Shown: positions 16,962-47,209, counted from the first letter of the stretch. The stretch is 64,000 bases of DNA from Erysipelatoclostridium sp. An173 (GCF_002160495.1 NZ_NFKR01000010.1:1-64000); one strand, 5' to 3'. The notes: generated from the letters alone by a model not told the origin. Made by a program: numbers and translations.

Positions 16962-18755
16962 TTAAAACCCAAAGAATTCTAAAAATTTTTCTAAAATAGA
17001 TTTTTCTTTCTCTACTTTAACTGTTTGCTTCTTTTCTACCTTTTTTTCAATTGCTGGTGTTGTAATAACAAACTGAATATCATAAACAGTACTGTTATTA
17101 GAAGAAACATAAGATACAACCTGGTAATCATCATTACTAAATTCACTTAACATTTCACTTATAGAATCATCAACCATAGAGTCAATATCATTAGTCTGAT
17201 TTTTGAATTCCGTTGTTCCTTTAACTAATTCTTGTGTTCCTTGATACAAATCACTAGTACCATTAGCAAGCGTTAAAGATCCTGTATATATTTGTTCATA
17301 GCCCTCTACAATCTGATTTAAAGCATTAGTGTAGTTATTAAAACCATTATTTAAATTACCATAGTTAGCAGCCAGGGTACTAATTCCTGTTTTAAGTTGA
17401 TCCATGTTCTCTAAGATCGTTGTTAATTCATTTGCTAAATTAATTATCTCTTGATTAAATAATCGATAGTTTTCTTCTAACATCAAAGCCCCATTAATAA
17501 CAGTGTTCCCTGAAATGTCCGGACTTAACTGGTTATTAAATTGCTCTAAAATTTTTTCACTTTCAGCTCCTGCCTTTAATAAAATAATTAATTGACTATA
17601 AAATTCACTATTGGCTGGATCGGTAGCAATTAACGACTCCAACTTAGCAATCATTTCTTCACTTTGATTATAAACTGAACTAATTGATCCACCAGTTGCA
17701 TTTTTATATTGTTCGATCGCCTGATTCATTGAATTTAAAGAGGCTACTAAAGTGCTAATACCTGTTTGAATTTGATTGGTGCTATCAATTAATTGATTTA
17801 TTTTTGTAGCATCAATATCTATTTTTTGTAATGTACTATCGATTATAGATAATGCTTCTTGTACTTCTTTTGAACCACTTGTTAATTTATCAGACTGTTG
17901 ATTCAAAGTAACTAAGGCTGTTTTAATTTGATTAATGCCATTTACTAAATCGTTACTTCCTTGATCTAACGATGAAGCACCAATATTTAGATCATTAGCC
18001 CCACTATCTAATTGATTAACAGCACTTTGTACTTCTCCAATTTTATTATCTATCAAGCTAGTATTAATATTACTTTTATCTATCGCTAAATTTAAACGAA
18101 TTCCGTTAATAGAAATTCCACCCATTTCAAAATCTGTTACATCACTAGTAATTTCTAATGTTTCACTATTACCAGGTAAAAGTGTATAAGTAATTTGTTT
18201 ATTATCACCAGCATTAGCAATCATTGCCCCATTTGCAATAATATTTTTACAATTATTGCTGTTTAAACTAGCTGTTATTTGTAAAGCATAATTATTAAAA
18301 TACACTTCATTAACATCTTTATTTTCAGTAATTTCGATTCTTATAGTTAATTTTCCTTTACAACCAGCAACCTTATTGTCCGCTATTTTTTTACCATTTA
18401 AATAATAACTAATTTTAAAGTTCCATGGTAAACTTGGATCTTCCAAATATCCTTGATAAGATAATTTTTCTTCATCAGTAGTTGCCTTAACCTGATTATT
18501 TTTATAAACCAATTTATCAGTACTACTCAAATTTTTTACCTGACTATAATTTCCATAATCAATTAATTTATTATTTTGAGGATAAACGATATTAACTACA
18601 TAACTTTCATCAACAGTACCATCCTGATTTAAATTTGCATAAATAACTTCTTCTTTAGGACTTGAAGGTTCAATTCCTTGAATCGGAATAATACAATTAC
18701 CAGCAACTACGCTACAAAGCCCTAAAACCAATATTTTATTACTTATTTTCATCAT
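16962..18755 (-). CDS. Secreted coiled-coil partner of MMPL transporter
   Basis: A 597-aa exported protein. Signal peptide MMKISNKILVLGLCSVVAGNCIIPIQG; residues about 30-225 form beta-rich domains; residues about 230-540 contain many 'L.(S/N)G...L..G...L' heptads (e.g. LDSGANDLNIGASSLDQGS), the extended helical pattern of YhgE/Pip and X-x10 repeats. There is a basic C-terminal tail. It overlaps the upstream MMPL gene by 17 bp, so the two are co-translated. Paired proteins of this kind are commonly found with Firmicute MMPL exporters and may form the periplasm-like conduit across the wall. Function is inferred from the pairing. Confidence 0.75.
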   Translation of the reverse strand: MMKISNKILVLGLCSVVAGNCIIPIQGIEPSSPKEEVIYANLNQDGTVDESYVVNIVYPQNNKLIDYGNYSQVKNLSSTDKLVYKNNQVKATTDEEKLSYQGYLEDPSLPWNFKISYYLNGKKIADNKVAGCKGKLTIRIEITENKDVNEVYFNNYALQITASLNSNNCKNIIANGAMIANAGDNKQITYTLLPGNSETLEITSDVTDFEMGGISINGIRLNLAIDKSNINTSLIDNKIGEVQSAVNQLDSGANDLNIGASSLDQGSNDLVNGINQIKTALVTLNQQSDKLTSGSKEVQEALSIIDSTLQKIDIDATKINQLIDSTNQIQTGISTLVASLNSMNQAIEQYKNATGGSISSVYNQSEEMIAKLESLIATDPANSEFYSQLIILLKAGAESEKILEQFNNQLSPDISGNTVINGALMLEENYRLFNQEIINLANELTTILENMDQLKTGISTLAANYGNLNNGFNNYTNALNQIVEGYEQIYTGSLTLANGTSDLYQGTQELVKGTTEFKNQTNDIDSMVDDSISEMLSEFSNDDYQVVSYVSSNNSTVYDIQFVITTPAIEKKVEKKQTVKVEKEKSILEKFLEFFGF

Positions 18756-31925: not shown

Positions 31926-32127
31926 TAAACTGATTTAACTTACGAGTTTTCTTTGTTACTATATATAAAATTGTAAGTGGTCTATAATTAACACACTTAA
32001 AATTTAATGTAAATCCAATTAAAATATGAATGTAAATTTTATTAAAAATCTTATTTTATCTCATAAAACCAATATTTTTAGACCTGTTTATGGTATAATT
32101 TTTGTCATAGAAAGGTGTTGATTTTTG

Positions 32128-33732
32128 ATGGATTTTTCCACTATGTCCAGAAAACAGCTAGAACAGTTTGCTGAAGATTATTATCAAAAATACCAGAATG
32201 CCCAGCATAATGCTGAATTATATCTTAATCAGCTGAATAGATTAAAAAATGACAAATATGGTAAAAAATCTGAAAAGATATCTACCATTCAACCAACTCT
32301 TGATCTATTTGATGAGGCTGATGAACTGGCAGCTGCTGATGAATATAATGAAAAACGAATCAATGTCAAAAGCCATTCTCGCAAACCAAAAATCAATGCT
32401 ATGAATCATCTTCCTGAAGATATTGAAACAGAAGTCATTGAACATGACACTGAAGACAAAACATGTTCCAAATGCGGTGGTCAGCTACATCTGATGAATG
32501 TCATCGAGAGAAAAGAACTTGTAGTCATCCCCCGAAAAGTTAAATTACGAATTCATAAGATATACGAATACGGTTGTAGAAACTGTGAAAAGAATGATGA
32601 TTGCGGAATCATAAAAGCACCAGGACCACAACTATTATTTGATAAATCACCAGTTTCGATAGAAACCGTGGGTTATCTGATGGATATGAAATATAATCTT
32701 GGAGTGCCATTAAAAAGAATTGAATCTGCAATGAAAGTAGAGGGGATAATATTTCCCAGAAACACATATGCAAGATGGATGATCGAAACAGCCAAAAAAT
32801 ATTTAATGGTTATCTATGATCATCTTCACAAAAAGCTGCTTGATCATGATCTGATCATGGCCGACGAAACACATTACAGGATATATGGTGAAAAAGGGAA
32901 AAAACGTCTAGGAAAGACATATATATGGATCTATAGAACAGGGCCATATGTTAAACACCCAATAATTCTTTACCAATATGATGGAGGAAGGAATGGCAAT
33001 ATACCAAAATCATTTTTAACAGAATACAGCGGGTATCTATTGACCGACGACTATTCAGGATACAATAAAGTAACGAATGTAACACGCTGTCTTTGTCATG
33101 CCCACAGCAGACGCAAATATGTTGAAAATATCAAAGGTAAGGGGAAAAATGTTCATGAGGATATGCCAGAGATAAAAATTGTAGAAATGTACAAAGAAGT
33201 ATTCAAGGCAGATAAAAAACTCTTAGAAAAGTATCAGGATAATTATGATAAGATCAGGGAACTGCGAAATCAGGATTTAAATGAAAATGGTGAAGATATC
33301 AGCGTAAAGGCGAAACTTGATGATCTTTATAAATATCTGGAAAAGCTGTATGATGAAGTCATGCCAGGCAGTCCGCTTTATCAGGCACTAAGCTATAGCA
33401 TAAGCAATAAAGAATGGCTGTATAATTTTCTAGATGATGGACGAATTCCATTAACCAATAATTTGACGGAATTGAGTGTAAAACCAGTCATCAACGTAAG
33501 AAAATCAGCAATATTCTTTGGCAGTCCTGATGGTGCAAGAAGCAGTGCGTGTATCTTATCGCTGATACAGACAGCCAAGGAAAATGGTATATCTCCATAC
33601 CGATATATCTGCACGGTATTAAAATATATGGTTGAGCGAAAGGATGATTCTGGAAACATAAACATAAACGAAGATGAACTGGAATCATTAATGCCATGGA
33701 ACATAAAGAAAGCTCAGGTATCAAAAACTTGA
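32128..33732 (+). CDS. tnpC: IS66 transposase TnpC (DDE)
   Basis: A 534-aa IS66 transposase. The N-terminal coiled-coil (LNQLNRLKNDKYGKKSEK), a zinc-binding segment (CSKCGGQL and CRNCEKNDDCG), then the DDE core: first Asp in MADETHYRIYG, second in LLTDDYSGYN, and Glu in LTNNLTELSVKP, followed by FFGSPDGARSSA. All are intact and the length is full. ATG 32128 follows AAAGGTG; the preceding TTG at 32125 is less likely. A TATAAT lies at 32094-32099. Ends at its own hairpin terminator. Confidence 0.93.
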   Translation: MDFSTMSRKQLEQFAEDYYQKYQNAQHNAELYLNQLNRLKNDKYGKKSEKISTIQPTLDLFDEADELAAADEYNEKRINVKSHSRKPKINAMNHLPEDIETEVIEHDTEDKTCSKCGGQLHLMNVIERKELVVIPRKVKLRIHKIYEYGCRNCEKNDDCGIIKAPGPQLLFDKSPVSIETVGYLMDMKYNLGVPLKRIESAMKVEGIIFPRNTYARWMIETAKKYLMVIYDHLHKKLLDHDLIMADETHYRIYGEKGKKRLGKTYIWIYRTGPYVKHPIILYQYDGGRNGNIPKSFLTEYSGYLLTDDYSGYNKVTNVTRCLCHAHSRRKYVENIKGKGKNVHEDMPEIKIVEMYKEVFKADKKLLEKYQDNYDKIRELRNQDLNENGEDISVKAKLDDLYKYLEKLYDEVMPGSPLYQALSYSISNKEWLYNFLDDGRIPLTNNLTELSVKPVINVRKSAIFFGSPDGARSSACILSLIQTAKENGISPYRYICTVLKYMVERKDDSGNININEDELESLMPWNIKKAQVSKT

Positions 33733-33741
33733 TACCTTTTT
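33717..33741 (+). terminator. Terminator of tnpC
   Basis: GGTATCAA (33717-33724), loop AAAC, TTGATACC (33729-33736), T5. It spans the stop codon. Confidence 0.85.
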
Positions 33742-33750
33742 GAGCCTGGA

Positions 33751-34107
33751 TCAAAAGATCCTTTGCTTCATTTCATGGAATGCTTTGGACTGATGAATAC
33801 TTAAACCATCAAGCAGCCAGCTAAGCTGCTTTTTAGTGATCAGCATAGCTTCGTTTTCATCATTGGGCCATTGATATTTAGATTTGTCGGTAACGGTCTT
33901 AGTATAAAGTTCAAAACCATTGATGCACCAGTGAAGAACCTTAATCGATTTCCTGGTTCTATTGGAAAAGATAAACACAGCATCAGAAAAGGGATCAAGA
34001 TCGTAGATATCCCTAACCATAGCGGCTAGAGAAAGCATCCCTTTTCTAAAATCAGTGCGACCAGTAATGATGTAAATACGTTTGACATTGTTGACATCAA
34101 GAATCAT
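33751..34107 (-). CDS. tnpB: IS66 accessory protein TnpB
   Basis: The 118-aa IS66 Orf2 protein: GRTDFRKGMLSLAAMVRDIYDLDPFSDAVFIFSNR and KVLHWCINGFELYTK are the family core. Intact. It lies on the strand opposite tnpC, ending 18 bp from tnpC's stop, and 34 bp downstream of tnpA, with which it forms a normal tnpA-tnpB pair. Confidence 0.93.
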   Translation of the reverse strand: MILDVNNVKRIYIITGRTDFRKGMLSLAAMVRDIYDLDPFSDAVFIFSNRTRKSIKVLHWCINGFELYTKTVTDKSKYQWPNDENEAMLITKKQLSWLLDGLSIHQSKAFHEMKQRIF

Positions 34108-34141
34108 AGGATAAGCATCTGATAACAGATCTAAGCAGTTC

Positions 34142-34399
34142 TTAATCGAAACCAGGGAAAAGCTTTAATCTAAAACCATTATATTCCAATTGGATGAAAG
34201 AATTTTTGTTCATACTAATAGATCTAAGCTCAATTACTTTTTTAGTATGATCAGATTTTTGCTTATGATAATGATATTTCATATCATCAATGGAAACATG
34301 ATGACGATTACAGAAATCGATCATAGATATAAAGTTCTGGTTGGATTTGTATTGATCGATCAAAGCATTCCAGTCAATTGTTTCGTTATTTTTATTCAT
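34142..34399 (-). CDS. tnpA: IS66 accessory protein TnpA
   Basis: An 85-aa IS66 Orf1-like protein with a short helix-turn-helix-like N-terminal part (WNALIDQYKSNQNFISMIDFCNRHHVS) and a C-terminal strand region (FIQLEYNGFRLKLFPGFD). AAAGGAGG precedes ATG 34399. Co-directional with tnpB and nearest the right-hand inverted repeat, the usual IS66 order. Confidence 0.8.
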   Translation of the reverse strand: MNKNNETIDWNALIDQYKSNQNFISMIDFCNRHHVSIDDMKYHYHKQKSDHTKKVIELRSISMNKNSFIQLEYNGFRLKLFPGFD

Positions 34400-34472
34400 T
34401 ATAAGTGAACCTCCTTTGCGAGTATTATCTCACAATCATCGGTTCACTTATAGTGTGTTAATTATAGACCAC

Positions 34473-34607
34473 TTACAGCCATTTATGGACTGTGCTGTCA
34501 GCAATACCAAATTGTTTAGCAACAGCTACTTTAGATTTATTTGGATGCTCCAACACATATTGTACTACTCCTTGTTTAAATTCATCTGTAAATATTGGTT
34601 TAGTCAT
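34473..34607 (-). pseudogene. IS3-family OrfA fragment cut by IS66
   Basis: ATG 34607 opens MTKPIFTDEFKQGVVQYVLE, then HPNKSKVAVAKQFGIADSTV and HKWL, the N-terminal HTH of an IS3-type OrfA. The frame then enters the IS66 inverted repeat, whose bases supply the TAA stop. GAGGT lies upstream. The remainder of the IS3 element is not found on the other side of the IS66, so a deletion accompanied or followed insertion. Confidence 0.85.
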
Positions 34608-34679
34608 TGTCATATACCTCTTTCCTGTTTTTTGATTTAAGCTTATGACATTGTACCATATACTAGCTAGTTCTTCCAT

Positions 34680-35107
34680 TTAACCGGTACAGTTTTTATT
34701 CTAGTATCAATAACTTATAAGATGCTGAAAGACTAAAGTTAACCTTTGTCTCTTTAATGTGAAATTTAATTTTTTATTTTAGAAATTAATATATTGTTAT
34801 CGACAAGGGTTAATAAATTTGGGGAAATATGAAAAATAATGCAAAATAATTATAAAAATAGACTATAATAGAGCATATAGGTACTGATTGTGAGTTTAAA
34901 GATCTTTGGTAAGTATTAATTATGTGTTAAATATAAATATTATTTTTTATTTGATTGATTTTAGAAAACGTAATTGTTTAAGGAACTAAGTTTTATCTTT
35001 AGTATAATTTATAAATCACAAATGTAAGAATTATACTTTATTGTTATGAATTTAGTTATGATTATAACAAATTAACTTAAAAAATATGTTATTACTAGAA
35101 AGGTGAT
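34680..35107. other. Non-coding gap before the GHKL operon
   Basis: About 430 bp, very AT-rich, with no credible frame or RNA gene seen. A TATAAT at 35003-35008 (in TTTAGTATAATTTATAAAT) is a candidate -10 for the operon at 35114, but no convincing -35 is spaced correctly. Confidence 0.4.
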
Positions 35108-35113
35108 GTGATT

Positions 35114-37018
35114 ATGGAAGAATGGAATTTTCCTGCTGCAAACGGATTAGGTATACAAGGAATTTCAAATAGTGGTGTTGAAACATTTAAAGGAAAAATA
35201 ATGGAATCTTTAACCAGGGAGATTTGTCAGAATTCATTAGATGCTACTAATGGATGCAAACCAGTAAAATTGGAATTTTATAAATCTACAATCCCAAAAG
35301 AATTTTTTCCTGGTTACGTAACATTGAAAGAGTATATGTATGATGCAAAAAGATATTGGGAACATAGGGGAAATAAAAAGTCTATAGATTTCTTTAATCA
35401 TGCATGCAAGGTTCTTGAGTCTGAATATATTCCTGTTTTGCGTATAAGTGATTTTAATACAACAGGATTAACAGGCAGTGATGATAAAGAAGAAAATTCA
35501 TCATGGTTTAGTATGGTTTGTTCCGAAGGAGTATCAAATAAGACAGGATCCAATAGTGGTAGCTATGGGATTGGTAAATCTTCTATTTATGCTGCATCAT
35601 CTTTACGTACAGTTTTCTTTAACACTTATGATAAGGATGGAAAATCTGCGGCACAAGGTGTTTCTAAATTAGCTACTTTTATAACAAATGGAGAGAAAAA
35701 GTTTGGTAATGGATTTTATGGAGTTTTACAGTCAGATGGATCAACAACATGTTGTGAGACGATTGATGAATTAGATGAAATCAATTATAGAAGTGAATAT
35801 GGAACTGATATATTTATTATGGGATTTAATGATTATTCAGATTGGCAAGATAAAATCATCATATCACTTTTAGAAAACTTCCTCTTGGCAATTTACAATT
35901 CTGAATTAGAAGTAAAAATTCAAGATGTAATAGTGAATAAAAATAGTCTAAAAGAACTATTAGAAAAATACAAAGACAAACCTGATGGATGCGCTTCTGC
36001 TTTTAATTATTATCAAGTTTTACTGTCTGATGAAGAAGTATATGAAAATACTAATCTTTTTGATGGAATAACTGGAAAGGTAAAATTGAAAATCAAAATT
36101 TTTAAAGATTCACTTGCTAATAGAACGGTATTAATGTCAAGAAGTAATGGCATGAAATTATTTGATAAAAATCGTATTTCTAAAAGTATTCAATTTTCTG
36201 CAATCCTAACAATGGAAGGAGAAAAATTAAATCAATATTTTGCTAGAATGGAAGATCCTACCCATACGTGTTGGCAGCCAGATCGTTATGACCATGAAAA
36301 AAATATAAAAAAGGCAGAAAAAGTTCTTAAAACTTTAAACAAATGGATTAAGGATACGATAGTTCAAAAAGGTACTGAGAGTTACGGAGAAGAAATTGAT
36401 ATTAAAGGATTGGAAGGTTTACTACCAGAATTCTACGAATTATCTAAAGATAAGAAAAAACATGAATCTTTAGAAAATAAAAAGTCTAAAGTTACAATTA
36501 ATAAAAAAGATAAAGTAAAACAATCGATTAATTATAAGACTTCATCAAATGAAAATTCATATTATGAATATGAAGATACTGGATCGTTAGATGATAATGG
36601 AGAATATGATACAAAAGATGTACCTCGTAATGATCATAGTAAAAATAAAAACGGTGAAGGAGCGCCTCATCAAGGAAATGACAAGGATGGGAATAGGCCA
36701 ATTATAAAGTTTTCAGAAGTGAATAATTATAAAAAACGTATTTTTATAAGTGACATTAATAAAAATGAATATACGATTAAATTATTGGTAAATCAAAATA
36801 TAGAAGATTACAGATTGCAAGTTTATATTTCAGGAGAAACAACAAATGTTGAGGCTAACATTCTGTCTGCAACCTCTGACGGAAGAAATTTAAAAGTTAC
36901 TCAAAATACAATACATATCGGGAGAATATACAAAGGATTTTTTAAAATAATTCGATTTTCAATAGAATCAGACTACCAATGTAATTTGGAGGTGAAATTA
37001 TATGCAAATAAGAAATAG
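35114..37018 (+). CDS. GHKL (MutL/Hsp90/MORC-like) ATPase of a putative defence operon
   Basis: A 634-aa protein with a GHKL ATPase domain: N-box EICQNSLDA (about 36-44, metal-binding Asn), G1 box ISDFNTTGLTG (about 112-122), and G2 loop GSYGIGKSSIYAAS (about 149-162), in the same order as MORC/MutL-type ATPases found in restriction-like bacterial operons. A second domain of mixed fold follows (HEKNIKKAEKVLKTLNKWIK near 400), then a Lys/Asp/Asn-rich linker (about 440-540) and a C-terminal beta domain. ATG 35114 follows AAAGGTGAT. It overlaps the next gene by 17 bp. A role in anti-phage or DNA-modification-dependent defence is inferred from family and island context. Confidence 0.75.
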   Translation: MEEWNFPAANGLGIQGISNSGVETFKGKIMESLTREICQNSLDATNGCKPVKLEFYKSTIPKEFFPGYVTLKEYMYDAKRYWEHRGNKKSIDFFNHACKVLESEYIPVLRISDFNTTGLTGSDDKEENSSWFSMVCSEGVSNKTGSNSGSYGIGKSSIYAASSLRTVFFNTYDKDGKSAAQGVSKLATFITNGEKKFGNGFYGVLQSDGSTTCCETIDELDEINYRSEYGTDIFIMGFNDYSDWQDKIIISLLENFLLAIYNSELEVKIQDVIVNKNSLKELLEKYKDKPDGCASAFNYYQVLLSDEEVYENTNLFDGITGKVKLKIKIFKDSLANRTVLMSRSNGMKLFDKNRISKSIQFSAILTMEGEKLNQYFARMEDPTHTCWQPDRYDHEKNIKKAEKVLKTLNKWIKDTIVQKGTESYGEEIDIKGLEGLLPEFYELSKDKKKHESLENKKSKVTINKKDKVKQSINYKTSSNENSYYEYEDTGSLDDNGEYDTKDVPRNDHSKNKNGEGAPHQGNDKDGNRPIIKFSEVNNYKKRIFISDINKNEYTIKLLVNQNIEDYRLQVYISGETTNVEANILSATSDGRNLKVTQNTIHIGRIYKGFFKIIRFSIESDYQCNLEVKLYANKK

Positions 37019-37859
37019 GCTATTTTCATATCCTGTTTATTCTAGTGACGTTGATGATTATATTGTAAATGAATTTGCCTTTGAATATAATATAGAAAAT
37101 GATGAAGAATCAATAAAGATTATTTATACAACCAAAATTTCAAACAAATTTATTTTAAATGGAATTGATAAAGAAGATATAAAACTAACCATTCTTGTTG
37201 AATGTTCAAAAACTGCGTATAGACAATTATTTATATTAAATGATTTGAAAGGTGTTATCGAGATAGCCTCACATTTGTTGTCCGCAAAAGTTGAAATATG
37301 TTGTTTATTACTAGCAAATAAAAATTTCATCATAAATAAAGAAAGTGGTATTAGTTCAGATTATTTGGACGCATCATTCAGTATAAATAGAGGGTATATC
37401 GTAGGATATGATAATGCTTATGCTTTTATAGTTGATAAGGATAAAGAAGAAAATTATAAATCCTCATCAATCATCTCTGTAGTAAAAAAACTAGATTTGG
37501 ATGATTACATGGATGTGGATTTAGAAAATGATAATAAAATTAAAATTCAATTAGGGGATGAAATGTATCAATATTTTGTTCAATTACAAGGACAAGATAA
37601 GCTACCGGTTATACATAGTATGATCGTTCTTCCGGTTTTAGTATATGTGATTGATCAAATTAAGGATTATACAATGAGAGAAACTTATGAAGATCGTTAT
37701 TGGTATAGATGTATTGCTAAACAATTAGAAATATTAAATATTGGTATTGATAGTCAGATTTTTGAAAGTAAATCGTCAGTGTCTATTGCACAAGAACTAT
37801 TAAAAGCTCCGATTAAAAATGCATTGTATGATTTGACATCAGTAGAAGGAGGGGATTAG
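37002..37859 (+). CDS. Conserved hypothetical protein of the GHKL operon
   Basis: A 285-aa protein, not recognised. Beta-rich N-terminal half (FAFEYNIENDEESIKIIYTTKI; LTILVECSKTAYRQLF), then a helical C-terminal part with RETYEDRYWYRCIAKQLEIL. No Cys clusters, P-loop or nuclease motif are clear. GGAGGTG precedes ATG 37002, inside the end of the ATPase gene, so it is translationally coupled and probably a partner or substrate adaptor of the ATPase. Confidence 0.65.
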   Translation: MQIRNRLFSYPVYSSDVDDYIVNEFAFEYNIENDEESIKIIYTTKISNKFILNGIDKEDIKLTILVECSKTAYRQLFILNDLKGVIEIASHLLSAKVEICCLLLANKNFIINKESGISSDYLDASFSINRGYIVGYDNAYAFIVDKDKEENYKSSSIISVVKKLDLDDYMDVDLENDNKIKIQLGDEMYQYFVQLQGQDKLPVIHSMIVLPVLVYVIDQIKDYTMRETYEDRYWYRCIAKQLEILNIGIDSQIFESKSSVSIAQELLKAPIKNALYDLTSVEGGD

Positions 37860-37860
37860 A

Positions 37861-38799
37861 GTGAAACTACATTTCTTTAAAGAGGATGCTTTAGATTATT
37901 TTAAAGCTAATGTGAAATCTAATATCACACATTATTCTGATTTAAACAATGAATGGATTTATGAACAATATGAAGAGCCATTTGAAGAAATTAATATTAA
38001 TTGTGAACCATTTAAATTATACATAAATCCAGATGAACCAACAAAAATGGATTTAGAAAATATCAAATTATTATATCCTGCATTAAAAGAGTTGACTGAA
38101 TCACAAGCGTGTGATGAAAGATTGTGGACTGGATTAGCACATAGCGATTTTTTTGAATATATCCAAAAACGATGGAGCAATCCTAGAGAATCTAACAACA
38201 TGAAAAAGGAAAATTATATTCTATCTAGATATTTTTTTTCTCAAGATCCAAAATCAAAAGTTAGACATACTTTAGCAAAATTATGGTGGTTAGGTAAAAT
38301 GCTTTACGATGAGACTAATCAAGATGACCCTTTACATTTTGCAGATACTCTTGGTAGAAAAGATATGGCTACAAGGATTAATGATGTTTTTACAAGTAAT
38401 TTCAGTAGAAATATTCATTTATTACGCCCTTTCTTAAATGTCATAGATTACTATGAACTAAATGGTAGAATTATTTCACAAGACTATTTTAGATCCTTAG
38501 TACAATATTTGAATGTTATCGGTGGTATTTATGTATTAGATTTTCTTGACGAAAATGATATTGAGTTAAAGTTAAAAGATCGTATTGAATATTATGATAA
38601 ATTTGGTGCTGATGTTGTAAAAGGAATTAAGAAGAAGAGAATAAATATAAATAGTGAACTTAGAGTATTAAGTAAAAACAAAAATAGAATATTCAAACTG
38701 ACGATTGATGAAAATAATATCTCTTATTTTTTGAATAAAAAAGTAAATGATTTGGTTTCATATAAAAATGATGAATTAAAAATCTTATTGATATATTAA
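37861..38799 (+). CDS. DUF6339-like protein of the GHKL operon
   Basis: A 312-aa protein recalling the DUF6339 family: CDERLWTGLAHSDFFEYIQKRW near residues 81-102 and the arginine-rich RHTLAKLWWLGKMLYDETN are the recognisable core. Helical; no known catalytic motif. GTG 37861 follows AGGAGGGG and begins 1 bp after the preceding stop. The family is uncharacterised; co-occurrence with a GHKL ATPase suggests a defence complex. The family name is given from memory and should be confirmed by profile search. Confidence 0.6.
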   Translation: MKLHFFKEDALDYFKANVKSNITHYSDLNNEWIYEQYEEPFEEININCEPFKLYINPDEPTKMDLENIKLLYPALKELTESQACDERLWTGLAHSDFFEYIQKRWSNPRESNNMKKENYILSRYFFSQDPKSKVRHTLAKLWWLGKMLYDETNQDDPLHFADTLGRKDMATRINDVFTSNFSRNIHLLRPFLNVIDYYELNGRIISQDYFRSLVQYLNVIGGIYVLDFLDENDIELKLKDRIEYYDKFGADVVKGIKKKRININSELRVLSKNKNRIFKLTIDENNISYFLNKKVNDLVSYKNDELKILLIY

Positions 38800-38958
38800 A
38801 AATTACTTATATATTTTTTAATAAGTATTTGTGAATAGAATGTTTAAATTTGTAGTGATGAAGACATTTCATGTAATAAATAAAATATTAATATTCGAGA
38901 TTAATAAAGATTTATAGTAACCCTATCTAATAATTTATATAAAAAAAGAAGTGATAAA

Positions 38959-39428
38959 ATGCTGTTTTGTCCTATACATAAAAAAATCGAACTATTAAAA
39001 ACGGATGATATACCACAAATTGTTAATGGATCAACATATTATGTATCTGTATTTTTTTGCAAAAAGTTTGGTAAATATATTATGCATTAGGATAAGATGA
39101 TAAACATATTCCAGGGATAGCTTGTACTTACAAAAATTCTTCAATTGTATATGTATCAAGATATCTTAGTGCCAAAAATAAGGGGGAACAAAAACCCTAT
39201 AATCCAAAAAAAAGAGCAAACAGAAAAAATTAAAGAAAGATACGTCTAAAAATAAAAAATCAAAACAACGGCAATACAATCATTCTTCATAAATTTAAAA
39301 GTAATAAAGAAGCTGATTATTTAGTTGAAAAGTTTAACAAAATAGATTTTGATTATCCTCAACTAATGGTAAATGATAAATCTATAAATGAAATCATTAG
39401 TAAAATATTTGCTTCTGGAATAGACTAA
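38959..39428 (+). pseudogene. Decayed small zinc-finger-like gene
   Basis: ATG 38959 (RBS AGAAGTG) gives MLFCPIHKKIELLKTDDIPQ and ends at TAG after KYIMH (about 39090). Shifted frames continue DDKHIPGIACTYKNSSIVYVS to about 39228 and LHKFKSNKEADYLVEKFNKI to TAA 39428. The Cys/His pairs (CPIH; FFCKKFGKY, probably once CKKCGKYY) suggest a zinc ribbon. Two frameshifts make it inactive. Confidence 0.6.
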
Positions 39429-39516
39429 AGTTGCGTTATTAGAAATGTGTCAATTTTTCACACTGATAAAAATAAGAAAGAATTTTTAGTAAGAAAGATA
39501 CAAAAAATATAATAAT

Positions 39517-39571
39517 AAAACAGTTAAGATAATTTGCATATTATTTTCTCAAATTATTTTAACTGTTTTTA
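39517..39571 (+). terminator. Terminator after zinc-finger relic
   Basis: AAAACAGTTAA (39517-39527) pairs with TTAACTGTTTT (39559-39569); the stem extends through ATAATTTG / CAAATTAT, and T-rich sequence follows. Confidence 0.75.
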
Positions 39572-39634
39572 TTATATTTATTAATTTTATTTGACTCGTT
39601 CTTTCATTTTTTTGTTCAAATAATCTGCTAATCA

Positions 39635-40768
39635 ACAGTTAGAAGATGTAAATATTATTGAGAATACAATTAAAAGAGAAAATGACATATCTATTAAGGT
39701 AAGTTTTGCATTTAATAAAATTAGTGCAAATTGCCTTTTTGATTTAATTACTGAAGATAACACAAAAGCTATGCTAAATAAAACGATGACAGAATTGAAG
39801 TTATGGGATGACTAACTTGACTAGAAAGAACAGTTATCATTATATAGGATGAGCGCATTAAAATATATTTATTTTTTTATTGATTTTGAAGAACGAAACA
39901 TTCACTTTCTAACAATTTCTGATTCTGAAACTGATTTAAAGAATTTTAAAAAATATTTAACTAAAAATGAAGTTAATATTTATGGGAATACTTCTTCAAA
40001 AGATAGATGGAAGTTTAGTATTGATACGGAAATACAAAGTACTTCCAATAATAATGGAGCATCTTTAGATTTTATTTCAAATGATGGAGAAATTGATATT
40101 GAAAATATTGACTTAGAGGTTTGGGATGAATTTAGAAATTATGTTGTTTTTGAGGATAAAAAACTTTAACATTAGAAAAATGTGTTGGTAAAATTAAGGA
40201 TACATATGAAATCCCTACTTATCATGAACTTGTTTTTAGACTACCTGAATCAATTGTTGATCTTTTGGAAATAGAATTAGAAAACATTTCATTTATAAGA
40301 GATGATCTAATTAGAAGAATATATCGAAATTTTGATACTGATGGATTTGTTGTCTTGTCTCAATTAAGTGATATAGTTTTAAATAAAAGATTGAAGAAAG
40401 CCATTATCGATTAAAAAATCCGAAATACGATTGCACAAGGACTGGATATGTGGCTCTTTGACATTAATAAGGCAAGGTTACCAAAAAATATCAAAGAGAT
40501 AAGTAATTGGAAAAATCCAAATCTAAATGAACCACAAAAGAGTGCAGTGAGAAAAATGGTTTCAGCTCCTGATGTATGCCTGTTGCAAGGTCCTCCTGGC
40601 AGTGGGAAAACAAAAGTAATAGCTGAAGCCATTTATCAATTTGTTTCTCAGAATAAAAGGGTTTTAGTTGCATCTCAGGCAAATTTGGCTGTAAATAATG
40701 TTTTAGAACATTTAATTTCATTGCCGAACATTAGGGCAGCCAGACAATCAGATTATAACAAAAAATGA
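39635..40768 (+). pseudogene. SF1 (UPF1-like, AAA_11) helicase, broken
   Basis: Coding blocks in shifting frames: LEDVNIIENTIKRENDISIK (about 39640-39810), MSALKYIYFFIDFEERNIHF (39849-40169), LVFRLPESIVDLLEIELENI (about 40170-40413), and 40448-40768, which contains the Walker A motif LLQGPPGSGKTKVIAEAI followed by VLVASQANLAVNNVLEHL, the hallmark of superfamily 1 AAA_11 helicases. The frame then stops and the whole second helicase domain is missing. Several stops and frameshifts show decay. It probably belonged with the GHKL operon upstream as a helicase partner. Confidence 0.75.
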
Positions 40769-41147
40769 GGAATAGAGACCCCTTATAAAATTTTAAAGGC
40801 CATATACGACATGTCCTCATAATATTTTAAAGGGCATCTTTCTCCTCATCAGATTTTATAATACCTATTTATCGAAAACATAATTCTATTTCTCATCTTT
40901 GAAAAGTTTAGAAATCCATTGGTATTTTTAGGATTGTTTTTATTCTTGAATTTTTATTTCTTCAATCTTGGCATTGGATATTCAAGGAGATATGTTTTTT
41001 TGTTTTGATGTGTTATTTCTTGTTGTAATAATTAAAATTTATTATTTTCCCATTAAAAAAGTGAAAATATTTAAATATTGACAAAGATCTATCCCCTTTA
41101 CAGATAGATCTTTTTATGATCTAATTAGTATTAAGGAGAGTAGAAAA
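40769..41147. other. Non-coding gap with terminator hairpin
   Basis: About 380 bp without a gene. Ends with AAAGATCTATC (41083-41093) pairing with GATAGATCTTT (41103-41113) plus T's, a terminator 32 bp before the next start codon; TTGACA occurs at 41078-41083 just before it, so a promoter followed by an attenuator is also possible. Confidence 0.6.
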
Positions 41148-43427
41148 ATGTCAAATTGGAAAGCAACAACATTTAAAGCTAGCGAATTAACAGATAAAAT
41201 TAAAAATCGAGATATAAGAGTTCCACATTATCAAAGAGGGCAAGTTTGGAAACAAGGTCAGAAAGATAAACTAATTGATTCTATTAAAAAGGGTTATCCG
41301 TTTGGAACCATATTATTGTACGAAAAAGAAGATCATACATTTCAATTAATTGATGGATTACAAAGGTCTTCTACAATATATGAATATTTGCATTCACCGG
41401 CAAAATTTTATCGAGATTCTGATATTAGTGATGAAACATTAGAAATTATATTCAATCATATTGCCTCTAATGGTGAGAAGAAAGCAATCAAAAATAAAAT
41501 TAAAAATACTATTTGTGAATGGGTTAAAGATAATAATAAGACGCTAAATGATGTAAAAAATATAAATTATATTGATTGTGCCCAAGAGATCCAAAAACAA
41601 TTTCCAACATGCACTGATAAATCAATAATTGAGATATCATTGATTTTAAGAGATCTATTTTCAAAATTCAAGGAAGAATGCGAAGATCTGGCCAATGCGG
41701 AAATACCTGCTATCATTTATACAGGAAATCCTGACAATCTACCCGAAGTATTTAATCGTATTAATTCCAGAGGAACAATTTTGTCCAAATATCAAATTTT
41801 ATCAGCTAATTGGTCAACTAAAATATATACAATAGATGATAATAAATTAGATGATATTATTAGTTATGTTGATAATTTTTATGTCTCAATTTTAGATAAA
41901 AACTTTACGGTTGATGGTTATGATATTAATGAAATAAGAAAATCAAGACAATTGAATTTATATCAAGTCTTGTTTGGTTTTAGTAAAATGTTGATAAAAA
42001 GATATCCACAGTTATTTGGGAAACCAAAAAAAGATAAGGAGGTTGAAAGTTGTGGATTTAATTTGGTAAATTGCTGTCTTGCAAATAAAAACAGTAAATT
42101 AGCTGATATGCCAAAAATATTGAATATTGTGTTTGATAAGGATGATAAAAAAATAAATCAATTTCTAATTAATATTTTAGACGTTACTAACACAATATAT
42201 AAATTGCTTAAACCATATTTAAATTTTAAACTAAATAAAAGAGATAGTTCTGAAATCTATCATACAGAATTTCAAATATGTTCAATGATCGGAAATTATT
42301 TTAATGCTAAATATTCTACTTTAACATATGATGATAATCAAATAGTAATTGGGAGAAATATTGAAATTGAAAGATCAAATAAATCATTTAAAAAATTCAA
42401 AAAAGAATTTCGGAAAAATGCATTTAAAAGATATCTTATCGATATTTTAAATGATTATTGGCGCGGGACAGGTGATAAGCGAATGGATGATGTTTCGATT
42501 AATTACCATTATTATACTTCTGATGTTACTGAAGAAAACATCGAAAATGAATTAGATCATTGGTTTAGACAAGTTATCAATAATAGACATGAGGCTGAGA
42601 AGGTGGCTACACCTAAGAGGGCAGATAAATTATTATTAAGTATTATTTATAATCGTTCATTTACTGCTTATGAACAAGACGATGATGTTACTTATGATAT
42701 AGAACATTTAGCACCTAAAGGCAAACTTAAAACAATGATGAAAAAGTTACCAAAAATCGAGGGTGTAAAGTATGGTTTACCTATAAGTTCTTTTGCAAAT
42801 CTTTGCCTTTTAAGAGAAGAAATAAATAGAAAAAAGCGAGATAAGACTTTATACCAAGATGATAAATATTTATTTGTTTTAAAAGAAAAAAATATATCAT
42901 TAGAAGAAATAGAACAAAAGTTTAGTTTTACAACAAAAGAAGATTTAAATTGGTTAGATCAAGATTATAATGACTTTGCTCAACTTAAAGATGCTTATAT
43001 TAATTTTTTAGAATTAAGATTTAAAAAACTGAAAACTATTATTATTAATAATTTATTTAATAGAAGCAATTGCGAAATTTTTAAAACAACTTATAATATA
43101 CAATCATTTAAATCAATTAATCTTGAAAGCTTTATTAAACCTATAGATACACTTCATCAAATAGTACTATTATCAAAAGAAAACTCTAATGAAATTATTT
43201 CAAGTTTAAAAGGTTGGCAAAAGGAAATATTTCTTATAATTGATCAATTTGAAAACAATGTATTTACTCTATCAGATTTATACAGTTATGAAGAAGAGCT
43301 ACATAAAAAACACCCTACTAACAATAGTATTAAATCTAAAATTAGACAAACTCTACAACAACTTAGAGATTTAGAGTTAATTAAGTTTTCTAATAATAAA
43401 GGCGAATATATACGTTTGTGGAAATAG
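41148..43427 (+). CDS. DUF262/DUF1524 (GmrSD-like) HNH nuclease
   Basis: A 759-aa defence protein. N-terminal DUF262 domain (ParB-like NTPase fold): VPHYQRGQVWKQGQKDKLID, YPFGTILLY and LIDGLQRSST (about 25-75), with VFNRINSRGTILSKYQI near 205. The DUF1524 HNH nuclease region near residue 515 has DIEHLAPK followed by FANLCLLREEINRKKRDKTL. A C-terminal winged-helix-like tail follows. Such GmrSD/BrxU-like proteins cleave modified phage DNA in an NTP-dependent way. AAGGAGAG precedes ATG 41148. Stand-alone in the defence island, between the dead helicase and the DpnII-type locus. Confidence 0.88.
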   Translation: MSNWKATTFKASELTDKIKNRDIRVPHYQRGQVWKQGQKDKLIDSIKKGYPFGTILLYEKEDHTFQLIDGLQRSSTIYEYLHSPAKFYRDSDISDETLEIIFNHIASNGEKKAIKNKIKNTICEWVKDNNKTLNDVKNINYIDCAQEIQKQFPTCTDKSIIEISLILRDLFSKFKEECEDLANAEIPAIIYTGNPDNLPEVFNRINSRGTILSKYQILSANWSTKIYTIDDNKLDDIISYVDNFYVSILDKNFTVDGYDINEIRKSRQLNLYQVLFGFSKMLIKRYPQLFGKPKKDKEVESCGFNLVNCCLANKNSKLADMPKILNIVFDKDDKKINQFLINILDVTNTIYKLLKPYLNFKLNKRDSSEIYHTEFQICSMIGNYFNAKYSTLTYDDNQIVIGRNIEIERSNKSFKKFKKEFRKNAFKRYLIDILNDYWRGTGDKRMDDVSINYHYYTSDVTEENIENELDHWFRQVINNRHEAEKVATPKRADKLLLSIIYNRSFTAYEQDDDVTYDIEHLAPKGKLKTMMKKLPKIEGVKYGLPISSFANLCLLREEINRKKRDKTLYQDDKYLFVLKEKNISLEEIEQKFSFTTKEDLNWLDQDYNDFAQLKDAYINFLELRFKKLKTIIINNLFNRSNCEIFKTTYNIQSFKSINLESFIKPIDTLHQIVLLSKENSNEIISSLKGWQKEIFLIIDQFENNVFTLSDLYSYEEELHKKHPTNNSIKSKIRQTLQQLRDLELIKFSNNKGEYIRLWK

Positions 43428-43661: not shown

Positions 43662-43700
43662 ATATCTTTTAGTTACGTACTAAAAGATATCTTTTTTTAT
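43662..43700 (+). terminator. Terminator of dpnD, contains left recombination-site-like repeat
   Basis: ATATCTTTTAGT / ACTAAAAGATAT with central TACGT (43662-43690) and T7. The same hairpin includes the 21-bp repeat 43666-43686. Confidence 0.8.
43666..43686 (+). repeat. Left 21-bp inverted repeat of recombinase cassette
   Basis: Arms CTTTTAGT and ACTAAAAG flank an asymmetric 5-bp core TACGT. It is the exact reverse complement of 44749-44769. The arm-core-arm layout resembles a tyrosine-recombinase core site. Confidence 0.8.
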
Positions 43701-43733
43701 ATTCTAACAGTTTTTTTGATTTTGATCTATCCT

Positions 43734-43763
43734 ATTATAAAATTATTTAAAGGAGAGTGTAAA
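43734..43763 (-). promoter_or_regulatory. Outward-facing promoter-like sequence inside the cassette
   Basis: On the minus strand TTTACA (43758-43763) and TATAAT (43734-43739) are 18 bp apart. It now points toward the 3' end of dpnD, but after inversion between the 21-bp repeats it would read into the methyltransferase gene. In AT-rich DNA this may be chance. Confidence 0.35.
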
Positions 43764-43767
43764 TAAA

Positions 43768-44697
43768 ATGATTTTATTAAAAAGAAAAAAATATGATGAA
43801 ATATTAGATGAATGGTTATTAGAAGTAAAAAGTAATGTAAAAGAGTCAACTTATGCAACTTATAAATTCCATGTTGAACATCATATAAAACCTTATTTCA
43901 ATAATAAACAAATTTCAAAAATCAAAAAAATTGAAATACAACAATTTATCAATTATAAACTGGAATATGGTAGATTAGATAATCGAGGGGGTTTATCAAT
44001 AAAAACCGTTAAAGATTTAATTAATATCATAAAGCAAAGCTTTGGGTATGCTATTAATAAAAATTACATTGAAAATATGGATTTAAATTTTAAAATAAAC
44101 AAAATACCGGATAAAGTAGTATTATTAGATGCTGATGATTTTAGTAAATTAGTTAATCATTTAAAGGATGATGATAACTATTTTAGTAAAGGAATATTAC
44201 TAATAATGTGTACAGGAATGAGAATTGGTGAAGTGTGTGCACTTAAAAATAGCGATATAAATTTAAATACGAAAGAAATAAAGATTAATAAAACTTTACA
44301 AAGAATACAAGATGTATCAAATAAAAATAAAACAAAAATAATTATTACCGAAACTAAAACCGTTAATTCCAAAAGAATTATACCTATTCCTGATTCACTA
44401 TTACCATATTTAAAAATTCAATGTAATTCTAACTATTATTTAACACAAACTGATAAATTTATTGAACCAAGAGTTTTTAGATATCGTTTTAAAAACAAAT
44501 TAAAAAAACTTAATTTACCAGAAGTTACCGTCCATTCGTTGCGACATTATTTTGCAAGTCAATGTATTGAATTAGGTTTTGATTATAAATGTTTAAGTGA
44601 GATATTAGGTCATTCTTCGCCTACTACGACAATGAAACTATATGTGCATTCAAAAAAGAAGTATAAAAAGGCATGCATGGATAGGATTAAAATTTAA
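43768..44697 (+). CDS. Tyrosine-type site-specific recombinase
   Basis: A 309-aa phage-integrase-family recombinase. SAM-like core-binding domain (about 10-105: VKESTYATYKFHVEHHIKPYF) and catalytic domain with Arg in CTGMRIGEVCALKNSD, HSLRHYFASQCIEL (HxxR), LGHSSPTTT and the Tyr nucleophile in MKLYVHS. Complete. AAAGGAGAGTGT precedes ATG 43768. It lies inside the DpnII-type locus, flanked by exact inverted repeats, with an imperfect terminator hairpin after it. Inversion of its own segment, rather than integration, is suggested by repeat orientation. Confidence 0.9.
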   Translation: MILLKRKKYDEILDEWLLEVKSNVKESTYATYKFHVEHHIKPYFNNKQISKIKKIEIQQFINYKLEYGRLDNRGGLSIKTVKDLINIIKQSFGYAINKNYIENMDLNFKINKIPDKVVLLDADDFSKLVNHLKDDDNYFSKGILLIMCTGMRIGEVCALKNSDINLNTKEIKINKTLQRIQDVSNKNKTKIIITETKTVNSKRIIPIPDSLLPYLKIQCNSNYYLTQTDKFIEPRVFRYRFKNKLKKLNLPEVTVHSLRHYFASQCIELGFDYKCLSEILGHSSPTTTMKLYVHSKKKYKKACMDRIKI

Positions 44698-44713
44698 AGA
44701 ATAAATAACAGCA

Positions 44714-44746
44714 AAGGTCCGAATTTAATATTAATTCAGATCTTTT
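44714..44746 (+). terminator. Imperfect terminator after recombinase
   Basis: AAAGGTCCGAATT (44713-44725) pairs with AATTCAGATCTTT, with one wobble and one mismatch, followed by T's. Confidence 0.55.
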
Positions 44747-44748
44747 TT

Positions 44749-44769
44749 CTTTTAGTACGTAACTAAAAG
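44749..44769 (-). repeat. Right 21-bp inverted repeat of recombinase cassette
   Basis: Arms CTTTTAGT and ACTAAAAG with core ACGTA, the exact reverse complement of 43666-43686. It ends 5 bp before the methyltransferase RBS. Confidence 0.8.
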
Positions 44770-44784
44770 AAAAAGGAGTGAATT

Positions 44785-46353
44785 ATGAAACCATTTGTAA
44801 AGTGGGCTGGAGGTAAAACACAATTATTAGATAAAATCGCTGAAAGATTACCATCAAGTATTAATGACTATTATGAACCATTTGTAGGTGGCGGAGCGGT
44901 TTTATTTAATTTTGCATTTAATAATGCAACTATCAGTGATATTAACGAAGAATTAATATTTACTTACAGGTGTATAAAAGAAAACTGTGATGAATTAATT
45001 AATAAATTAACGCAATTAGATAACGAACATGTAAATAATCCTAAAGAATTTTACTACCAAATTAGAGAAAATTATAACGATAAGATAAAAAATAACGTTA
45101 AGGATACAGATCTTGCTGCAATGTTTATTTATTTAAATAAACATTGTTTTAATGGCTTGTATCGAGTTAATTCAAAGGGACTATTTAATGTACCATTTAA
45201 TCAAAAGAAAACAGGGAATTCTTTTGATCGTGATAATTTAAAACAAATATCTGATTATTTACAGAGTGTAACTATTAACTGTGAAGATTTTGAAAAAGCA
45301 TGTAAAAATTGCAAAGAAGGTGATTTTGTTTTTTTTGATAGTCCTTATGCACCATTAAAGGATACTTCGTTTGAATCATATACAAAAGAAGGCTTTTCTA
45401 AGGAAGAACATATTAGATTAGCAAATCTTTTTAAACAATTAACATTAAAGGGTGTCAATTGTATGTTAACAAATCATAATACCGAATTTATTAGAGAATT
45501 ATATATAGATTTTAATATTGAAGTAGTAAGTGTAAAAAGGTTAATTAATTCAGACTCTTCTAATAGAAATGGTGAAGAAGTAATTATTACTAATTACAAA
45601 AATAATTCAGATATTCAATTAATTAATGGAGATGCTTTTGAAATACTACCTAGTATTAAAGAAAAATCTATCGATATGATATTTTTAGATCCACCTTATT
45701 TTTTATCTAATGGTGGTATTACATGTTCTGGTGGTAAGCAAGTATCAGTAAATAAAGGGTCTTGGGATGAAAATTATAGTCTTGAAGAGAAAATAGATTT
45801 TAATCGTAGATGGTTATTAGAAGCTAAACGCATTTTAAAAGATACCGGAACTATTTGGATATCTGGTACATATCATAATATTTATATAATAGGATATTTG
45901 TTAGAAGAATTAGGATTTAAAATACTAAATAATATTACTTGGATGAAAACTAATCCACCACCAAATCTTGCATGTCGTTGCTTTACTCATTCAACAGAAA
46001 CAATATTGTGGGCAAAAAAGAATCTAAAAAATGCTAAGTACACATTCAATTATCAGTTGATGAAAGAATTAAATGGAGGCAAACAAATGAAAGATGTTTT
46101 TGTTGGATCATTGACCCCAAAAAGTGAAAAGAAATATGGCAAACATCCAACTCAAAAGCCAGAGTATTTATTAGAAAAAATTATTCTAGCAAGTACTAAT
46201 GAAGGTGATCTTGTTTGTGATTTTATGGCTGGAAGTTTCACTACTGGTGTTATTTGTAAAAAACTAAACAGAAGATTTATTGGTATTGAAAAAGAAAAAG
46301 ATTATTACGAACTCGGATTAAAAAGAGTAGGTGATGTACATAATGAAACGTGA
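44785..46353 (+). CDS. Fused DpnM-DpnA type N6-adenine methyltransferase (GATC)
   Basis: A 522-aa fusion of two adenine methyltransferases. Residues 1 to about 272 form a Dam/DpnM domain: FVKWAGGKTQLLDKI and YEPFVGGGAVLF (SAM site), with the catalytic motif reading FFDSPYAPL, i.e. DSPY in place of the usual DPPY. Residues about 275-520 form a DpnA-like beta-class domain: FLDPPYFLSNGG, KHPTQKPEYLLEKII and DFMAGSFTTGV. In the classical DpnII system these are separate genes (dpnM, dpnA). AAAAGGAGTG precedes ATG 44785. It overlaps the endonuclease gene by 11 bp. GATC specificity is inferred from family. Confidence 0.9.
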   Translation: MKPFVKWAGGKTQLLDKIAERLPSSINDYYEPFVGGGAVLFNFAFNNATISDINEELIFTYRCIKENCDELINKLTQLDNEHVNNPKEFYYQIRENYNDKIKNNVKDTDLAAMFIYLNKHCFNGLYRVNSKGLFNVPFNQKKTGNSFDRDNLKQISDYLQSVTINCEDFEKACKNCKEGDFVFFDSPYAPLKDTSFESYTKEGFSKEEHIRLANLFKQLTLKGVNCMLTNHNTEFIRELYIDFNIEVVSVKRLINSDSSNRNGEEVIITNYKNNSDIQLINGDAFEILPSIKEKSIDMIFLDPPYFLSNGGITCSGGKQVSVNKGSWDENYSLEEKIDFNRRWLLEAKRILKDTGTIWISGTYHNIYIIGYLLEELGFKILNNITWMKTNPPPNLACRCFTHSTETILWAKKNLKNAKYTFNYQLMKELNGGKQMKDVFVGSLTPKSEKKYGKHPTQKPEYLLEKIILASTNEGDLVCDFMAGSFTTGVICKKLNRRFIGIEKEKDYYELGLKRVGDVHNET

Positions 46354-47209
46354 TTTTGATCAGTGGATTGAATCATTTAGAAGTAACATTGCAGATTATA
46401 AATATTATGTAGATTTTGATAAAATATATAAAAATGTTGAAAATATTAATATAGAATTAAATATTCTTAATTCATTAATTGGAGTAAAAGACTTCGATGG
46501 TAAATTTAAAAAACTATGTACCGAATATCCTAAAATACTGGAGTGTATTCCAATATTAATAGCTGTTAGAAATAATGAAATAGAGATTCAAGAAAAGGAT
46601 AAATCTATAACCTATAACTTTAAATACCATAAAAATGTAGTCTTAGATCAGTATTTAATAGATGACTATTTAACATTCATGATAGAAACTGGTTTAAAAG
46701 AATTGATTCAAAATCGGATAATTAATAATTTAGTAGATTATGTTTTGGGAGTAGAAGTCGGATTAGATTCTAACGGGCGAAAGAATCGTGGTGGTCATTT
46801 GATGGAAAATCTGCTAGAAAAATATATTCAAGAATTAGGGGTAGAATACTACAAAGAGATGTATACAAAAGAAATTGAAGATAGATGGAATATGGATCTT
46901 TCTTTGCTAACTAACGCTGGTGATGTAGCTAAAAGATTTGATTTTGTTGTAAAAACAAATAATCAAATCTATGCATTTGAAACTAACTTTTATAAAAGTG
47001 GTGGAAGTAAACTTAATGAGACAGCAAGAAGCTTTAAAAATATTGCAGAAGAAATTGATAAAATTCAGGGTATTACTTTTATTTGGGTGACTGATGGAAA
47101 AGGGTGGATTAGTGCTCGACACAATTTAAAAGAAACATTTGATGTATTAGATACTTTATATAATATCAATGATTTAGAAAATGGTATTCTAAATGTAGTT
47201 GTTAAATAA
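46343..47209 (+). CDS. dpnB: DpnII/MboI-type restriction endonuclease (GATC)
   Basis: A 288-aa type II endonuclease, the same length as classical DpnII. It starts MKRDFDQWIESFRSNIADYK. The conserved catalytic region GVEVGLDSNGRKNRGGHLME, RFDFVVKTNNQIYAFETNFY (PD-(D/E)xK-like D...E-x-N) and FIWVTDGKGW are present. It cuts unmethylated GATC by family. Start ATG 46343 uses AGGTGATG inside the methyltransferase gene. Complete, so methylation must be active if this is expressed, which matters for any methyltransferase ON/OFF switch. Confidence 0.9.
   Translation: MKRDFDQWIESFRSNIADYKYYVDFDKIYKNVENINIELNILNSLIGVKDFDGKFKKLCTEYPKILECIPILIAVRNNEIEIQEKDKSITYNFKYHKNVVLDQYLIDDYLTFMIETGLKELIQNRIINNLVDYVLGVEVGLDSNGRKNRGGHLMENLLEKYIQELGVEYYKEMYTKEIEDRWNMDLSLLTNAGDVAKRFDFVVKTNNQIYAFETNFYKSGGSKLNETARSFKNIAEEIDKIQGITFIWVTDGKGWISARHNLKETFDVLDTLYNINDLENGILNVVVK

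Follow-up and report, generated by a model that had tools for sequence, protein, structure and literature searches.

A complete PDC-M33 locus in Erysipelatoclostridium sp. An173: a mobile three-gene unit with a putative paraMORC2-type GHKL ATPase

Among bacterial GHKL ATPases, the paraMORC2 group was described by Iyer, Abhiman and Aravind (2008, PMC2292703), in passages that give as its mark an ExxxH motif strongly conserved in the S5 domain, in its C-terminal part, and that place the group mainly in Gram-positive bacteria and cyanobacteria, alongside methylases, Vsr and restriction-fold nucleases. Passages of Miller 2022 (PMC9523054) describe a six-gene candidate, "type I", made up of Z1, PD-(D/E)XK, a C5 methyltransferase and three further genes; it is tied there to repair endonucleases, and its family is called reminiscent of MZA. 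The same passages present MzaABCDE (Gao et al. 2020), in which a GHKL ATPase is networked with Z1, DUF4420, AIPR and sigma-factor-like genes and mzaA is a sigma factor. The GHKL-Shedu protein VcSduA (PMC12137116) likewise has a GHKL ATPase module acting in phage defence, there fused to a nuclease. The PDC label denotes unpublished phage-defence candidates (PMC11811056; PMC11514479).

The window analysed here is a stretch of 64,000 nucleotides from Erysipelatoclostridium sp. An173, to which all coordinates refer unless a locus is named. Three intact open reading frames on its plus strand were verified: gene A (35114-37018, 634 aa, ATG start, with a second possible start, GTG, in frame at 35108), gene B (37002-37859, 285 aa), whose start overlaps the end of A by 17 bp, and gene C (37861-38799, 312 aa, GTG start), which follows B after a gap of 1 bp. 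The coupled three-gene operon at 35114-38799 claimed in the earlier note was thereby confirmed. Promoter-like sites were no more frequent in the window than expected by chance, no terminator-like site was found downstream of C in the window sequence, and no tRNA that could serve as an integration site was found within the window.

The operon had been put forward as a new anti-phage system, and this was ruled out: PADLOC-DB 2.0.0 already lists the trio as the candidate PDC-M33. A matched PDC-M33A (PDLC04582, E 7.1e-202, model positions 1-625 of 627), B matched PDC-M33B (PDLC04583, E 6.9e-81, positions 1-283 of 289) and C matched PDC-M33C (PDLC04587, E 1.4e-211, positions 1-312 of 312), C falling under the long (312 aa) C model. 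With all three genes full length, adjacent, on one strand and in the order A-B-C, the window trio amounts to a complete PDC-M33 locus, and the module is real, intact, under selection and mobile. The literature search found no paper containing "PDC-M33" or "DUF6339" and no phage assay for any PDC-M33 locus. The present analysis adds the paraMORC2 assignment, the strict boundaries of the trio and its tie to Z1/DUF4420 operons.

The surroundings given in the earlier note (an IS66 element, a broken SF1 helicase, a DUF262 protein and a DpnII-type locus) were all found. Directly upstream, and outside the system, lies an IS66-like element (31972-34477) identified by its open reading frames and perfect 26-bp terminal inverted repeats; its TnpA and TnpB genes, on the minus strand, point towards TnpC, on the plus strand, and are not co-directional with it. 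Between this element and the trio, positions 34473-34679 hold a remnant resembling an IS3/IS911-type transposase OrfA, and a similar stretch occurs in L037 at 17016-17254. Downstream, stops fall in all three frames from 38800 to 41147, a region that includes what is left, on the plus strand (39849-40768), of an SF1 (AAA_11/IGHMBP2-like) helicase gene disrupted by stop codons and frameshifts (PF13086, 8.6e-18 on 40448-40768). A DUF262/GmrSD_N protein follows on the plus strand (41148-43427; PF03235, 2.8e-28; PF17726, 1.1e-21), with a terminal winged-helix (HTH) domain of DpnI_C type that might read adenine methylation. Beyond it, a tyrosine integrase gene is flanked by perfect 23-nt inverted copies (43665-43687 and 44748-44770) of a palindromic site, TCTTTTAGT-N5-ACTAAAAGA, of which the window has only these two copies; a relative in G251 (L185) matches exactly 43665-44770. 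The integrase and its sites stand right before the methylase gene of a DpnII-type restriction-modification (R-M) locus, and the flanked segment is possibly an invertible switch of that locus. By Pfam, the DpnII-type locus (44785-47209, plus strand) comprises a D12 methyltransferase fused to an N6_N4 methyltransferase in a single 522-aa frame (44785-46353, plus strand; PF02086, 6.9e-70; PF01555, 8.3e-59) and a DpnII endonuclease (46331-47209, plus strand; PF04556, 4e-107).

Across genomes, plasmids and phage, A, B and C were found together, on the same strand and in the same order, in 29/29 loci with a full-length A, the third gene of 5 of these loci being so divergent that the C profile barely sees it, though its place and size are the same. 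The arrangement is more than a chance one: conserved synteny of the three genes was seen in Bacillota, Actinomycetota, Deinococcota and viral contigs, 6 of 8 of the last keeping the trio. Scans of IMG/VR with sub-family alignments yielded few further loci, and alignment A3 was too variable for the collection scan. Independent searches of one set of 392 genomes of the phylum detected A in 23/392 and DUF6339, the family of C, in 19/392, every one of the 19 lying inside the 23 A-bearing genomes (hypergeometric p 9e-29). The three genes form an obligate unit. The nearest homologue (L002, 88% protein identity) aligned with the window by blastn over a single 3.7-kb segment at 86.5% identity, with unrelated flanks, delimiting a mobile unit A-B-C at 35087-38803 (plus strand). 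Comparison with the same locus gave dN/dS values of 0.12 for A, 0.11 for B and 0.08 for C, indicating purifying selection, and A was absent from 8/8 congeneric genomes. The synteny, the co-occurrence, the exact boundaries against L002, the dN/dS values and the patchy presence together identify the trio as the mobile unit on which selection acts. A housekeeping role was ruled out by the sporadic distribution (23/392 genomes, 0/8 congeners) and the genomic context.

No Pfam match was obtained for A at E<=1. Its assignment as a GHKL ATPase was made from invariant motifs, a Pfam domain match being lacking. These are an N box, REICQNSLDA (E36, Q39, N40, D43), a G1 box, DFNTTGLTG (D113, T116, G118), and a G2 box, GSYGIGKS (G149, G152, G154, K155), which the earlier note had already described as intact. 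Residues E36, Q39, D43, D113, T116, G118, G149, G152 and G154 are invariant in 30 A homologues, and N40 is kept in 29 of the 30. Also invariant across the 30 are R343, M347, E380 and H384, the first two located where the S5 domain is expected and the last two bounding an ExxxH motif (E380-D-P-T-H384) that is present in 30/30 homologues and in 3/3 divergent relatives. The MORC-proper motif of the S5 domain, GhXhhpXXRhl, was found in 0/30 homologues. Comparison of A with a MutL profile by hhalign was weak (p=0.011, with the N box aligned), and the genome has a MutL of its own at G000:C90. Since the GHKL boxes and ExxxH are kept and the MORC motif is absent, A is read as a paraMORC2-type ATPase, matched by the published motif description; the label "MORC/MutL-like" previously given to it was not supported in the strict sense. 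With paraMORC2 the protein shares the GHKL motifs, the ExxxH late in the ATPase module, the Gram-positive bias and the R-M context, whereas the passages of PMC2292703 on this group name no B or C partner.

B was unmatched in Pfam (E<=1), and NCBIfam gave no match for A, B or C, in line with the earlier description of a 285-aa protein without recognised motifs; C proved to be a true DUF6339 protein (PF19866, E 7.9e-56), as had been suggested, and the view that B and C lack a described function was supported. The AlphaFold2 model of B (pLDDT 78) contains a predicted beta-sandwich (about residues 25-184) and a helical tail (186-280), and a fold search with it returned only fibronectin-III/Ig-like sandwiches (best E 3e-3, Z 7.7), within the chance range. 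The model of C (AlphaFold2, mean pLDDT 66, partly of low confidence) shows a helical body, for which the fold search gave no convincing match, and a small C-terminal beta domain (about 257-312). Matches of C to designed repeat proteins appear to be artefacts of composition. No solved-structure relatives of B or C were found by sequence search. There is no invariant polar residue in B alignment A2 (30 sequences) or in the alignment of C homologues, and a nuclease role for either protein was rejected for want of invariant acidic, His or Lys sets. From their alignments and models, B and C look like non-enzymatic, adaptor-like proteins.

One alternative is that the trio acts by abortive infection or signalling, with A as a GHKL infection sensor and B or C as an effector that stops growth, for example via RNA polymerase and the GreA/FKBP-like tail. 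The window C has a tail similar to the C-terminal domains of GreA/Gfh1, with Z 5.2-6.4 (for Gfh1, Z 6.4 over 58 residues, rmsd 3.4), the trio is without a nuclease, and AbiG and AIPR genes are neighbours at some loci. However, values of Z < 8 may reflect merely a common arrangement, most C homologues, at about 250 aa, lack the tail, and neither B nor C has invariant residues of active-site type, so that this explanation is considered unlikely.

Three divergent relatives of A (L181-L183) were found in operons of the order C5 methyltransferase-Z1-A-B-C-DUF4420 or close variants. The MzaC model matches the Z1 protein of L181, and matches of the DUF4420 proteins to MzaD are weak. Profile comparison with the divergent A gave p 4e-18 over 376 columns, with ExxxH kept, and with the divergent C p 9e-6; B compared with the middle gene of the Z1 operons was weak (p 0.01) and scored above all 20 shuffles. 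In make-up these operons agree with the "type I" candidate as passages of PMC9523054 set it out, and the three further genes of that candidate are probably A, B and C. Because divergent trios lie inside matching C5-methylase/Z1/DUF4420 operons, PDC-M33 appears to be a nuclease-less, stand-alone form of the "type I" module; this link was not found in the literature searched. The window trio differs from the operons in having no adjoining Z1, DUF4420 or C5 methyltransferase gene. A profile search of the whole genome found no Z1 (one control genome was positive), and a search for DUF4420 gave no match, likewise none in any control genome. A matches no MZA model, and unlike VcSduA, the trio carries no nuclease; no methyltransferase or nuclease family matched within it, whereas a type II R-M operon would hold both.

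Gene neighbourhoods were compared between a flanking set of 118 genes at most two places from trio homologues and a control set of 119 genes far away in the same genomes, for which the 25 commonest families were used. Methyltransferases made up about 19 of the 118 flanking genes (D12 8, C5 6, N6_Mtase 5), an enrichment with p 8e-7 (3e-4 under a conservative control). Vsr, HNH, ResIII, EcoRII-C, AbiGii and SLATT were also present, and none of these families was among the 25 commonest families of the 119 control genes. On plasmids the neighbours included Dcm/Vsr/type II R-M, Shedu, AbiG and AIPR genes. The restriction-like context claimed in the earlier note is supported by this content, and its defence reading, checked for enrichment near defence genes and for matches to housekeeping families, was not refuted. 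In three loci (L042:6194-9004, L048:10917-13424 and L050:6655-8997) proteins of 780-936 aa with a sigma-70 region 4 domain are encoded upstream of A, their ends adjoining or overlapping its start, an arrangement reminiscent of mzaA.

A different account of these neighbours is that the trio has no defence activity alone and supports an R-M system, adjacent or unlinked, whose nuclease or methylase it helps by the DNA looping between recognition and cleavage sites proposed in passages of Iyer et al. (PMC2292703); here the partner would perhaps be the DpnII locus or the DUF262 protein. Methyltransferases do stand near many trio loci: L039 has the operon order D12 methyltransferase-HNH-A-B-C, a D12 methyltransferase gene directly follows the trio in L046, L047 and L049, and the divergent forms are welded into C5 methyltransferase/Z1/DUF4420 operons. 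Nevertheless, what moved between the window and L002 was the trio alone, without methyltransferase or nuclease. Partners vary by locus (D12, C5, N6, MmeI, Shedu, AbiG or none), and in the window the methyltransferase nearest to the trio is that of the DpnII locus, at 44785, 6 kb off and beyond an integrase. An accessory role is accordingly regarded as possible, though clearly the weaker reading. Still less weight is given to the view that the trio serves plasmid or mobile-element maintenance, or DNA repair, and merely travels with defence islands. Many homologues are plasmid-borne and some lie beside recombinases, but the enrichment of methyltransferase, restriction and Abi families over control genes, and the kinship with Z1/DUF4420 operons, themselves similar to the validated MZA system according to the passages of PMC9523054, make it very improbable.

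In many loci a small protein, S (72-80 aa, motif RxAExRTNKIL..LLGN.SN..NYDYT), is encoded immediately or a short distance upstream of A. The S gene is absent from this genome, a remnant upstream of the window A was sought and not found, and the window copy might be incomplete without it. As a missing fourth part of the system S was ruled out; it also occurs next to a second GHKL family and in unrelated contexts and is therefore an optional accessory, apparently one that GHKL restriction-type systems share, outside the core. In two other genomes (L172:7995-10546 and L173:7980-10553) S lies between a C5-methyltransferase-like gene and a gene for a 767-aa protein with GHKL motifs of its own (DAIQNAV, DSGTMGLTG, GLYGAGKS), followed by a gene for 254 aa. 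The 767-aa protein had no Pfam or PADLOC match, and the operon is a possible separate, undescribed GHKL restriction-type system.

Eukaryotic MORC proteins, thought to descend from ATPases that belonged to R-M systems of bacteria, clamp DNA and in this way silence transposons and viruses, and MORC-1 closes round DNA as a clamp in an ATP-dependent manner. MORC2 is also a DNA clamp and compacts DNA (PMC12216690), and MutL forms sliding clamps according to passages of PMC9530208. By analogy, the binding of ATP probably makes A dimerise and clamp round DNA. B would be an obligate non-enzymatic partner, probably bridging or dimerising, and C, here with its GreA/FKBP-like tail, would be another, probably with a role in loading or target sensing. 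The A-B-C complex would target foreign, improperly modified or replicating phage DNA; once loaded, it would trap or compact this DNA and so block copying and transcription; where a methylase, Z1 helicase or nuclease lies next door, the clamp may recruit or license that neighbour. An ATP-operated clamp with structural B and C is the most economical model, since the trio encodes no nuclease and has none as a fixed neighbour. The gene set, its motifs, synteny, co-occurrence, selection and context are observed. Clamp action, the partner roles and the anti-phage activity of the trio are what we infer from these comparisons. The favoured reading, that PDC-M33 is a horizontally moving three-gene defence module in which an A clamp and its B and C partners trap foreign DNA, is given a probability of roughly 0.55. 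Counting against it are the weak relation of B to the middle gene of the Z1 operons, the lack of an S gene here, and the many trio neighbourhoods without a methylase among the genes examined.

More tentatively, and with considerable doubt, A-B-C may be the autonomous nuclease-free core of a large GHKL clamp family, entrapping and silencing DNA without cutting it, the Z1/DUF4420/methylase operons then being clamp plus nuclease. If this is true, entrapment by the trio would be a bacterial counterpart of the MORC silencing of foreign DNA. As a nuclease-free set of three genes whose ATPase is a relative of MORC, PDC-M33 makes non-cutting DNA entrapment as a bacterial defence directly testable, and its link to Z1/DUF4420 operons indicates which partners to test alongside.
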